Source: Parachitinimonas caeni
GTDB lineage: Bacteria; Pseudomonadota; Gammaproteobacteria; Burkholderiales; Chitinimonadaceae
Assembly (NCBI RefSeq): GCF_030129945.1
Contig: NZ_JARRAF010000005.1
Coordinates: 124,001-188,000 of the forward strand
Direction of reading: 5' to 3'
Length of the DNA: 64,000 nt
A program made the position numbers and the translations under genes. The notes beneath the pieces are model-generated. The model worked only from the letters and a program-made list of their open reading frames with translations, did no database searches and was not told the origin of the DNA. Shown here in pieces: positions 54,546-57,876 of the stretch (positions are counted from its first letter, which is position 1; each line of letters starts with the position of its first letter).

Positions 54546-55448
54546 TCAGTTGGGAGCGGCTTTCATGGCTGAGAGCAAGGTGCTGAAGTTGTAGCGCCAC
54601 ATGGCGAGGTAGTTGGGGGCGCTTTCCGATGGGCTGGAGAGCGCGTCGGAATACAGCCGGCTGCCCACGCTGGCGCCGGTTTCGCGGCTGATCTGCTCAA
54701 TCAGTTTGGGATTGGAGATGTTCTCGACAAAGACGGTTTTGACCTTCTCCTGGCGGATCTGCCGGATTAGCCGGGCTACCGAGCCGGCTGAGGCGTCAGA
54801 CTCGGTGCTCATGCCTTGTGCTGCCAGAAACTGGATGCCAAAGCGACGGCCCAAATAGGCAAAGGCATCGTGAGAGGTAATGATCTTGCGTCGGCTGGCC
54901 GGTACTTTGGCGATTTCCTGAGTGGCCCACTGTTCCAGTTCCTGCAGCTTCTGGTCGTAGGCGGAAGCGCGCTGTTGGTAGTAGGCGCCATTGGCCGGGT
55001 CGGCCTTGCTGAGCCCATCGGCGATATTGACGACGTAACGCCGGGTGACGCTCAGATCCTGCCAGGCATGCGGGTCGAATTCATGGCCGGCGTGGCCCGC
55101 ATGGTCATGGCTGGACTCCGACTTGAGTGGGGTGATGCCCTGGCTGGCGACGACTACCAGCCCGCCAAATCGACTGGCCTTGATCAAGCGCTCCATCCAG
55201 CCTTCGAACCCCAAACCATTCACTACCATGACCTTGGCACCGGCAACGGTCTTGAGGTGAGTGGGGGCTGGTTGAAAGACGTGGGCGTCAGCATCCGCAC
55301 CGACCAGGGTTTTCACGGCGACGCGGTCGCCCCCGACCTGCCGAACCAGATCGCCAAGAACGCTGAAGCTGGCGACAACCGGCATGGGTTCGGCTGCGAA
55401 GGCGGATGGGAGGATCAGGCCGGCGAGGGCTGCGAGGAGTGATTTCAT
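54546..55448 (-). CDS. znuA: Zinc ABC transporter substrate-binding protein
   Basis: A 300-aa cluster A-I periplasmic metal-binding protein. Signal peptide cleavage is after AFA (residue 18). Metal ligands include H56 (DADAHVFQP) and H127 (EFDPHAWQ). The His-rich loop SHDHAGHAGH (about 113-122) is typical of zinc-binding rather than manganese-binding members. The start at 55448 is fixed by the signal peptide. It is the last gene of the leftward zur-smORF-znuC-znuB-znuA operon, 124 bp after znuB. Confidence 0.92.
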   Translation of the reverse strand: MKSLLAALAGLILPSAFAAEPMPVVASFSVLGDLVRQVGGDRVAVKTLVGADADAHVFQPAPTHLKTVAGAKVMVVNGLGFEGWMERLIKASRFGGLVVVASQGITPLKSESSHDHAGHAGHEFDPHAWQDLSVTRRYVVNIADGLSKADPANGAYYQQRASAYDQKLQELEQWATQEIAKVPASRRKIITSHDAFAYLGRRFGIQFLAAQGMSTESDASAGSVARLIRQIRQEKVKTVFVENISNPKLIEQISRETGASVGSRLYSDALSSPSESAPNYLAMWRYNFSTLLSAMKAAPN

Positions 55449-55572: not shown

Positions 55573-56442
55573 TCAACGTTCGAGGTGGCGGCTGCGCAAC
55601 CAGCGCCAGACCAGCCCACCTTCGCGCCCTGCCAGCAGCGACAAGGCATAAGCGATGCCTGCTGACAGCACAATCGCCGGGCCGGAGGGAAGGTCGGCGT
55701 GGTAGGACACCAATAAGCCGCAGTAGCTGGAACCCAGCGCGATCCCAACGGCGACGCCGATCAAGCCTCCCAGCGAACGTGCCCACAGGCGCGCCGTTGC
55801 GGCGGGGAGCATCATCAAGCCGACGGCCATCAGGGTGCCCAGTGCCTGAAAGCCGGCAACCAGATTCAGTACCACCAGAACCAGAAACGCCAGATGGGCG
55901 AAGGTACCGCCGCCGCCATTGGCTCGCAGGAAGTCGGGGTCGAAGCTCTCGACCACCAGTGGCCGATAGAGCAGGGCCAGCGCAATCACGGTGATGCTGG
56001 ATACGACGGCCAGAAACAGCAGGGCGGTGCTATCGACCGCCAGCACGCTGCCAAACAGGATGTGCATGAGATCGACGTTATTGCCCCACTTGGAGACCAG
56101 CAGCACGCCACTGGCCAAAGACACCAGATAGAAGGCGGCGAAGCTCGCGTCTTCTTTGAGTCGCGTTCCTCGGCTGACCAGCCCGGCCGCGAGAATCACC
56201 ACGATGCCGGCGATGAGCCCGCCAATGCTCATGGCGGTCAGCGACAGGCCATACAGGATGAAGGCGATGGCGGCTCCGGGCAGGATGGCGTGGCTCATGG
56301 CATCGCCGACCAGACTCATGCGCCGGAGTACCAGAAACAGACCGATGGGGGCGCAACCCAGGGCGAGCGCCAGGCAGCCGACCAGTGCATGCCGCATGAA
56401 GGCGAATTCGTCAAAGGGTTGCCACAAAAGCTGATAGAGCAT
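55573..56442 (-). CDS. znuB: Zinc ABC transporter permease
   Basis: A 289-aa integral membrane permease of the ABC-3 family, with about eight helices. RRMSLVGDAMSHAILPGAAI is the family signature that contacts the ATPase, and LVVLNLVAGFQALGTLMAVG is a second conserved block. It lies 50 bp after znuC and 124 bp before znuA. It forms the membrane channel for zinc uptake. Confidence 0.94.
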   Translation of the reverse strand: MLYQLLWQPFDEFAFMRHALVGCLALALGCAPIGLFLVLRRMSLVGDAMSHAILPGAAIAFILYGLSLTAMSIGGLIAGIVVILAAGLVSRGTRLKEDASFAAFYLVSLASGVLLVSKWGNNVDLMHILFGSVLAVDSTALLFLAVVSSITVIALALLYRPLVVESFDPDFLRANGGGGTFAHLAFLVLVVLNLVAGFQALGTLMAVGLMMLPAATARLWARSLGGLIGVAVGIALGSSYCGLLVSYHADLPSGPAIVLSAGIAYALSLLAGREGGLVWRWLRSRHLER

Positions 56443-56492: not shown

Positions 56493-57263
56493 TCAGCGAA
56501 CGGCCGGAGCGGCCTCGGGTGCCGGGTCGTCGCGGTGGCAGACCGGTGCCCGCTCATCCCAGGCTTGGGCCATGGCATTGGCGCGTGCCAGGTTGTGGGG
56601 GGTGAGTACGCTGTCGGTGGCTCCCCAGGCAATCACTTCCTTGGCCAACAGCAAGGTATGGGCAAAATGGCTTCTTACCTGCTCGAAGTCATGGAGCACG
56701 GCAATGATCGTCCGGCCTTCCTGCCGCCAGCGGTCGATCACGGCGAGCAGATCGGCCGTGGTCTTGCTATCGAGCGCGGTAAACGGCTCGTCGAGCAGGA
56801 TGACCGGGGCGTCTTGCAGCAGGATGCGGGCAAACAACACGCGTTGGAATTGGCCGGCGGACAACTCATCGACATTCCGGCTCTCGAAACCGGCCAGGCC
56901 GACGGCTTCCAGCGCATGCTCGGCTTGATGGCGAGCACGGTGACTGACTTTGCCGAACCAGCCTGAACCATGCCAGTGACCCAGCTGGACGCAATCGGCC
57001 ACCGAGAGCGGAAAGCTACGGTCGATGGCGGCCTGTTGCGGTAGATAGGCAATGTCGCGCCGGGTGCGTTGGCCGAAATCCACCCGGCCATGATTGGGTT
57101 TGAGCAAACCTACCAGCGCCTTCATCAGGGTGCTTTTGCCTGCGCCATTCGGGCCGACCAGCGCCGTGGCCTCGCCTTGGGCGAATTCCCCACTGGCGTG
57201 ATGAACAACCGGGTGGCGGTGGTAGGTCAGGGTCAGATTTTCGATGCGTAAGGGGCTGGTCAT
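56493..57263 (-). CDS. znuC: Zinc ABC transporter ATP-binding protein
   Basis: A 256-aa ABC ATPase. Walker A is GPNGAGKST (residues 37-45), the signature is ELSAGQFQRVLFARILL and Walker B is VILLDEPFTALD. The H-loop His is in IAVLHDFEQV. A C-terminal His/Asp/Arg region follows. Its ATG overlaps the stop of a 37-codon open frame (ATGA at 57260-57263), so it is translationally coupled to it. It powers ZnuB for high-affinity zinc import. Confidence 0.95.
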   Translation of the reverse strand: MTSPLRIENLTLTYHRHPVVHHASGEFAQGEATALVGPNGAGKSTLMKALVGLLKPNHGRVDFGQRTRRDIAYLPQQAAIDRSFPLSVADCVQLGHWHGSGWFGKVSHRARHQAEHALEAVGLAGFESRNVDELSAGQFQRVLFARILLQDAPVILLDEPFTALDSKTTADLLAVIDRWRQEGRTIIAVLHDFEQVRSHFAHTLLLAKEVIAWGATDSVLTPHNLARANAMAQAWDERAPVCHRDDPAPEAAPAVR

Positions 57264-57373
57264 GCCTCACCTTTCAGTGCCCACCAGACGGCCAGCCATA
57301 GCATGGCGACAAAGGGCAGTACCCGGAGCAGACGGTCCCAGGCCGAACGGGCCAGCAGGGAGGGCTTGCTCAT
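57260..57373 (-). CDS. Small membrane peptide gene between zur and znuC
   Basis: A 37-aa open frame beginning MSKPSLLARSAWDRLLRV and ending with a hydrophobic Leu/Trp/Val-rich helix and the tail KGEA. Its ATG overlaps the zur stop (ATGA at 57370-57373) and its TGA overlaps the znuC start (ATGA at 57260-57263). The chain zur-peptide-znuC is thus doubly coupled, which argues that it is translated. The helix (about residues 18-33) should span or dock on the inner membrane. It may modulate the ZnuBC transporter, as small proteins do for other transporters. Function is inferred from position only. Confidence 0.6.
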   Translation of the reverse strand: MSKPSLLARSAWDRLLRVLPFVAMLWLAVWWALKGEA

Positions 57374-57840
57374 GCTTCACCTGCCTGTTCCACCTGCTGG
57401 CAATTGGCACAAATGCCTTTTATTTCAATGTCCTGCTGTGACAGGCGAAAGCCCAGTCGCGCTGCATCTTCGGCTAGCCGCTCGGCCCAGCTTTCATCGG
57501 AGAGTTCGTGTACGCCCCGGCAGCGGTCGCAAATCAGCATCAGCCCGTGGTGATGGGTGTGATCCAGCTCGCGACAGGCGACAAAGGCATTGAGCGAACC
57601 CAGCTTGTGTGCGAGGCCGACGTTCAGCAGAAAATCGAGTGCCCGGTAGACCGTGGGGGGGGCCGCCGTTGGCTTGCGCTTTTGCAGTTCGGCCAGCAGC
57701 TCGTAGGCTTTGATCGAGCCATCGTGGGCCAGCAGCAAGGAGAGAACCTCCCGCCGCAGATCGGTCAGTTTTTCCCCGCGCTGCAGACACCAGTTGGCGG
57801 CAGCATCGAGTTCGTGTTCGAGATTGGTTTCGGTATTCAT
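57370..57840 (-). CDS. zur: Fur-family zinc regulator Zur
   Basis: A 156-aa Fur-family repressor. The N-terminal winged helix (LTDLRREVLSLLLAHDGSIK and APPTVYRALDFLLNVGLAHK) binds DNA. The dimerisation domain has CRELDHTHHHGLMLICDRC, with a structural CxxC, and a second pair near the end, CANCQ. Position at the head of the zinc operon and a Zur-type box just upstream identify it as Zur and not Fur. With zinc bound it should repress its own operon. Confidence 0.93.
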   Translation of the reverse strand: MNTETNLEHELDAAANWCLQRGEKLTDLRREVLSLLLAHDGSIKAYELLAELQKRKPTAAPPTVYRALDFLLNVGLAHKLGSLNAFVACRELDHTHHHGLMLICDRCRGVHELSDESWAERLAEDAARLGFRLSQQDIEIKGICANCQQVEQAGEA

Positions 57841-57859: not shown

Positions 57860-57876
57860 TTGTTATATTATAACAA
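57860..57876. promoter_or_regulatory. Zur box upstream of the zinc operon
   Basis: TTGTTATATTATAACAA is a 17-bp palindrome perfect except for the central base. It matches the proteobacterial Zur core GTTATAnTATAAC and lies 20 bases before the zur ATG, where bound Zur would block transcription. Confidence 0.9.

Follow-up and report, generated by a model that had tools for sequence, protein, structure and literature searches.

The ZniCBA zinc importer is described as a three-gene operon in Klebsiella pneumoniae (PMC10797113) and as three genes in Rhizobium leguminosarum (PMC12183173), and the available parts of these two papers mention no small gene. The available part of the second paper also places a Zur motif 153 bases before zniC in R. 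leguminosarum, a distance that would leave room for a short gene of the kind described below. Here we analyze a 64,000-nucleotide stretch of the genome of Parachitinimonas caeni (the window), in which the ATPase gene of such a transporter is directly preceded by a gene for a small membrane protein (SM).

The transporter locus and the small gene in the window

By sequence similarity the transporter in the window is of the ZniCBA type, because its binding protein is closest to ZniA and far from Escherichia coli ZnuA, and zinc import is predicted. The start of the binding protein was set at the in-frame ATG that precedes an apparent signal peptide. Among solved structures it matches ZniA (8SVC) first of 50 with 255.3 bits. 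The next matches are 5KZJ and AztC at about 230 bits (228.3 for AztC structures 5W56/5W57), and E. coli ZnuA (2OSV) scores 45.8 bits. The three genes follow the ZniCBA order of ATPase, permease, and binding protein, all on the minus strand. The permease stays below the NCBIfam AztB cut-off (265.7 versus 280), which places the locus outside the AztABCD type by that model. In a phage search with the window ATPase, the best five of 39 matches were manganese-type or unnamed ABC ATPases with 35% identity.

Table 1. Positions in the window of the zur, small membrane protein, and transporter features
Feature	Positions	Strand	Remarks
Zur-box-like palindrome TGTTATATTATAACA	57861..57875	.	just 5' of the zur start; zur is the first gene
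zur (Fur family)	57370..57840	-	best NCBIfam match is Zur, under its cut-off
ATGA overlap, zur stop / SM start	57370..57373	-	4 nt; same 4-nt form in 9/10 relatives
Small membrane protein gene (SM)	57260..57373	-	37 codons, directly 5' of the transporter ATPase gene
Predicted transmembrane helix of SM, residues 11-34	57272..57343	-	AlphaFold2
ATGA overlap, SM stop / ATPase start	57260..57263	-	4 nt; same in 10/10 relatives and 103/142 family members
Transporter ATPase (ZnuC-labelled; ZniC/AztA-like)	56493..57263	-	NCBIfam AztA 220.4 bits, cut-off 220
Transporter permease (ZnuB-labelled; ZniB/AztB-like)	55573..56442	-	Pfam ABC-3; NCBIfam AztB 265.7 bits, cut-off 280
Solute-binding protein (ZnuA-labelled; ZniA-like)	54546..55448	-	closest solved structure 8SVC, K. 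pneumoniae ZniA

The SM frame runs from ATG to TGA and is read as MSKPSLLARSAWDRLLRVLPFVAMLWLAVWWALKGEA; the genome has a single copy. A sequence-only reading of this DNA had described a frame of 37 residues joined to zur and znuC by ATGA overlaps, and both four-nucleotide overlaps are in place. The overlapping reading frames would allow translational coupling of SM with its neighbors. The same reading saw a basic N-terminus followed by one hydrophobic helix. In agreement with this, residues 1-17 include four Lys or Arg and one Asp or Glu, and AlphaFold2 predicts a single helix (residues 11-34, mean pLDDT 86.5). The prediction, which drew on 25 window and locus sequences, shows nothing beyond one helix. 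Taken with the conservation of the family, it places the family-invariant Arg (R14) at the opening of the helix and W26 and W31 close to its end. The window protein matches no family in Pfam or NCBIfam at E 1 and none in PHROGs at 0.01. Among 41 SM members no Pfam or NCBIfam family is matched by more than one (best E 0.019), and the SM profile matches no solved structure at E 1.

Distribution of the small gene and its link to the ATPase gene

The small gene is conserved in the closest relatives of the window locus. The window Zur was searched in 100 related genomes, of which 61 matched at E 0.001, other Fur-type proteins among them. The closest zur-znuC loci, L001 (the window) to L011, come from the Chitinimonas-type family and a neighboring family. 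All ten of the other loci have the SM frame, and all ten keep its four-nucleotide overlap with the ATPase gene. The SM start codon lies 4 nt into the zur stop in nine of them and 14 nt in the tenth. The junctions of these relatives show that the doubly overlapping frame is more than chance, as does the clean background of 708 regions described below. Residues R14, P20, L25, W26, V29, W31, and A32 are common to ten sequences (L005, identical to L004, was omitted), and over the last 30 codons the L004 and L005 genes differ by three synonymous and no nonsynonymous changes. The SM protein of Chitinimonas prasina (L031) is the same as in genomes G006 and G007, which suggests that Chitinimonas belongs to the GTDB family of the window. 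One genome of the same family that is 87% complete (G003) is without the SM frame and without the permease.

Over a wider range of genomes the constant neighbor of SM is the ATPase gene. A profile search matched 69 of 399 genomes of the order at E 0.1, and a znuC-like gene lies directly 3' of SM in 29 of the 30 best loci. The position of zur varies. Another gene sits between zur and SM in the Chromobacteriaceae, with about 1 kb between the two in Vogesella, Chromobacterium, and Pseudogulbenkiania. In the Alcaligenaceae zur is divergent; it is so in Achromobacter, Castellaniella, Pollutimonas, and others, where SM leads and the ATPase gene follows. Because SM keeps the ATPase gene where zur is divergent, non-adjacent, or separated by another gene, it goes with the ATPase gene and not with zur, and SM as a partner of zur was rejected. 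The sequence-only reading had tied the frame to the zur-znuC junction; its tie to a ZnuBC-type transporter stands, and its specificity for that junction falls.

Two details of these loci are recorded here. In Vogesella (L046:6276-7346) the gene between zur and SM encodes a GTPase-like protein with a GCLCC motif, which we take to be COG0523-like, and in the other Chromobacteriaceae loci the gap 5' of SM is about as long. The exception among the 30 best loci (L138:1495-1575, from a 1.4 Mb genome) is an SM-like frame between two unrelated genes, presumably protease-like and seryl-tRNA-synthetase-like, with no importer nearby; it is a probable chance match.

To lessen search bias, a further survey started from permeases matched by the NCBIfam AztB model in the order, class, and phylum. 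The region upstream of the ATPase gene was read in 167 places, which were not deduplicated and four of which (L157, L181, L217, and L219) were unreadable. SM is directly upstream in 127 of the 137 places where the ATPase is at least 38% identical to that of the window, and in none of the 26 places where identity is lower. The 127 comprise 124 found by script plus L172, L174, and L202, with profile scores of 49.7, 28.3, and 39.1 and hydropathy just below the cut. Five loci with profile scores of only 3.6-8.9 (L148, L163, L208, L232, and L278) were accepted on position, helix, and motif; a cut loose enough to admit them also lets through 5 of the remaining 698 regions of the background. Among the 708 background upstream regions the profile exceeds 10 bits at 10 places, all of them true SM members before znuC. 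The profile had been trained on 41 rows from loci L001-L140, and set A of the survey is therefore not fully independent of it. In the independent sets B, C, and C2 (77 places) the ATPase reaches 38% identity in 62 places, and 52 of these have SM. The ten misses among the 137 are L235, L258, L273, and seven AztABCD-type places (L260-L266), whose permeases are the only ones in the survey above the AztB cut-off.

The family is found across Burkholderiales (in the GTDB sense), Enterobacterales, and Alphaproteobacteria. It is well supported that SM is a real coding gene, that it forms a family, and that the family is linked to ZniCBA-type importers; the family is widespread and apparently without earlier description. 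The expectation that gene finders skip such short frames is correct only in part: SM is called as hypothetical or uncharacterized in at least four of the nine annotated records that hold it and give its neighbors, and it is unlisted elsewhere in tables that are incomplete.

Other gene arrangements were also seen. No SM-ATPase fusion occurs among the loci, and what look like N-terminal helices of the ATPase in L010, L180, and L250 come from sequence upstream of its start, read out of frame. A Bradyrhizobium plasmid (L319, NZ_CP064702.1) encodes an ATPase 50% identical to that of the window, with no SM and a longer annotated N-terminus; this long start holds no such membrane helix. AztB permeases without SM align over roughly equal length, which bears on the idea that SM is a missing permease helix. 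In L181 (G264) the 1.9 kb upstream of a permease of this type contain no detectable ATPase. On a Roseomonas gilardii plasmid (L310, NZ_CP015585.1) the gene for cytochrome ubiquinol oxidase subunit I, cydB, and a small DUF2474 gene are followed by genes for the permease and the binding protein, and an ATPase gene is not detectable.

Conservation, tails, and history of the family

The SM sequences show conserved residues, purifying selection, and a strong charge bias. The Arg is invariant in 144 of 144 copies, the first Trp is present in 142 of 144, and the second Trp in 126 of 140. The median length is 48 (range 27-89, with heuristic starts). Over the 144 proteins there are 473 Lys or Arg residues before the helix and 29 after it; the N side is richer in 136 proteins and poorer in none. 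Because of this bias the N-terminus is predicted by the positive-inside rule to be cytosolic. For 64 pairs of related loci, which share sequences and are not independent points, the differences at codon positions 1, 2, and 3 number 357, 244, and 606, and the pooled pN/pS over the last 30 SM codons is 0.38 versus 0.18 for the ATPase.

Some members carry potential zinc-binding tails. A tail before the helix that is His-rich (at least four His) or of Cys type is found in 39 of 144 SM proteins. Seven loci have a His-rich N-terminus on the ATPase and 13 a His-rich C-terminus. With the cuts used here 89 of 144 loci, the window among them, have no His/Cys tail on either protein, and therefore zinc binding cannot be the common function of SM; zinc handling through tails applies at most to part of the family. 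Tails on SM and ATPase occur together in one of 144 loci, a count for which no significance is claimed, as the rows are related and the starts heuristic. In the Chitinimonas genus group (L002-L007 and L009) the ATPase N-terminus has 4-9 His in six of seven loci and three in L002, and SM has no His-rich tail. In the sister genus and the neighboring family (L008, L010, L011, and L122) the His-rich tail is on SM. This distribution is suggestive of a tail swapped between SM and ATPase across lineages; it is not a statistical result. In L209 and L213 the SM tail has C-x-C-x-x-C directly N-terminal to the helix in place of a His-rich stretch, a motif spotted by eye and probably missed by the script pattern.

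Many SM genes lie behind a candidate Zur site. In 44 of 143 loci a Zur-box-like site, with one mismatch allowed, lies no more than 450 bases upstream of the SM core, against near 0 in shuffles that preserve base composition only. Operons in which zur or another gene comes ahead of SM should have the box farther upstream.

The distribution of SM on the ATPase tree points to few gains and losses. The tree has 195 rows, 146 with SM and 49 without; it is a quick tree with some long branches, and part of the rows were found via SM. SM presence requires four changes, compared to a mean of 43.8 when shuffled, and marks one supported clade of 156 rows (SH-aLRT 99). Eight AztABCD-type rows form a single clade (support 100), and because this clade is nested within the SM clade, the absence of SM from it suggests secondary loss. 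The AztABCD branch, L235, L273, and the Bradyrhizobium locus retain the transporter with no detectable SM, and therefore SM is not strictly indispensable.

Proposed role and comparison with known systems

Zinc importers of the ZniCBA type probably have an accessory membrane subunit that has been overlooked, namely SM, its physical association with the transporter being presumed from linkage and conservation. It would cross the inner membrane once, N-terminus on the cytosolic side, and would be produced under Zur control immediately ahead of the ATPase, with the translation of the two coupled. The helix, whose cytosolic end is marked by the Arg and whose outer end is marked by Trp, may dock on the permease and aid assembly or transport cycling. 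The His/Cys-rich cytosolic tail seen in about a quarter of the family could add zinc binding, either catching imported zinc or sensing cytosolic zinc, and in the Chitinimonas relatives such a tail would be carried on the ATPase N-terminus instead. The window protein is tail-less, so the function of the helix alone is expected here. We infer the translation of SM, its binding to the permease, any zinc binding, and its role from these comparisons, and the suggestion of the sequence-only reading that it is a stabilizer or regulator of ZnuBC is an inference of the same kind.

One alternative is that SM is a regulator and not a structural subunit, a protein that inhibits or destabilizes ZniBC when cytosolic zinc is sufficient and uses the tail as its sensor. 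MgtR and SgrT are small proteins of the type to which such a regulator is likened. This fits the tails on the predicted cytosolic side and co-expression under Zur-box-like sites. Against it stand the coupling of SM in cis to the ATPase and the Zur box, which predicts expression exactly at zinc scarcity; most copies, including that of the window, also have no tail for sensing. We regard a regulator as rather unlikely.

Less likely still is a leader or coupling role for the frame, in which its translation opens the ATPase start and its product is inert. SM directly precedes the ATPase gene across the family, overlapping it by exactly 4 nt in 103 of 142 loci, as a leader would, but 27 of the 142 have a gap instead. 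Moreover, an inert peptide would not retain the Arg in every copy and the first Trp in nearly every copy, together with one membrane helix, the N-in bias, and purifying selection.

It appears very improbable that SM is merely carried along with the transporter and has as its target Zur or the product of some other neighboring gene, such as a GTPase. Upstream, SM does overlap zur in the window family, and in Vogesella the GCLCC gene precedes it; yet SM stays with the ATPase gene when zur is divergent or non-adjacent or another gene intervenes, and the 26 loci with more distant ATPases and no SM include several beside zur. Short frames are common here (64 of at least 25 codons in the 4.5 kb around SM, true genes included), but chance or noncoding conservation, with the frame arising simply from GC-rich DNA between its neighbors, is hardly credible for a family conserved over three large groups with a clean background and a frame-specific substitution pattern.

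If SM is an accessory subunit, its linkage suggests a missing fourth part in this type of importer. This type, known from work on Klebsiella and Rhizobium and represented by a relative in the gonococcus, appears to have a conserved fourth gene, which is absent from the published operon descriptions in the parts that were available. Constructs that begin at zniC would leave SM out. A wider and distinctly speculative proposal is that ZniCBA-type importers across Pseudomonadota are four-part machines, in which SM is part of the transporter and a swappable His/Cys tail, on SM or the ATPase, takes zinc leaving the channel and then either passes it on to carriers in the cytosol or closes the pump at high zinc. 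Among the matches listed in a full-text search of the open-access literature, which mostly leaves out subscription journals, there was no small membrane protein of a zinc importer. A term search of the main text of a paper on small membrane proteins across prokaryotes (PMC10903887) gave no occurrence of zinc, znu, or zur. SM offers a direct test of the use of small accessory helices by ABC metal importers and of the handling of imported zinc on the cytosolic side.

SM has the single helix and very short length of proteins of the CydX and KdpF kind (helix 11-34; median length 48). KdpF is a short one-helix partner of a membrane complex. CydX (PMC4325964, PMC6005532) and AcrZ (PMC7267776), as described in the available parts of those papers, are likewise short, with one helix and a membrane complex as partner. 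SM differs from all three in that its presumed partner is an ABC metal importer, it has no profile match, and many members have His/Cys-rich tails. The E. coli-type ZnuABC system is also a zinc importer with a cluster A-I binding protein, but that protein is distant from the one in the window (46 bits for 2OSV), and ATPases less than 38% identical to the window ATPase are never accompanied by SM (0/26).

The AztABCD system of Paracoccus (PMC5387054, available part) is a Zur-controlled zinc importer with a related ATPase and permease. It differs in SM, which is present in none of ten Azt-type places (L260-L266, L314, L318, and L323). The AztD chaperone gene is listed in both annotated Azt-type places. 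On a Skermanella rosea plasmid (L309) SM, ATPase, permease, and binding-protein genes are flanked by genes for DUF1826, a GTP-binding protein, and a WD40-repeat protein; the WD40 gene is AztD-like, and SM and an AztD-like gene can therefore coexist.

The closest known system is ZniCBA. The window binding protein is most similar to ZniA (8SVC), the gene order is the same, and Zur control, as in ZniCBA, is predicted here from the Zur-box-like site; the window copy differs in sitting in an operon behind zur. SM is present in Neorhizobium, and N. gonorrhoeae has a 34-codon copy. The ZniCBA loci of Klebsiella and Enterobacter hold SM before zniC. In E. hormaechei an SM-type frame lies between the Zur box and the ATPase gene, and in K. 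pneumoniae the Zur box is followed by a 35-codon SM and then zniC; both frames are unlisted in the record tables, which are incomplete. In K. aerogenes the Zur box is followed by a 35-codon uncharacterized gene, which is SM, and this gene overlaps zniC by four bases.
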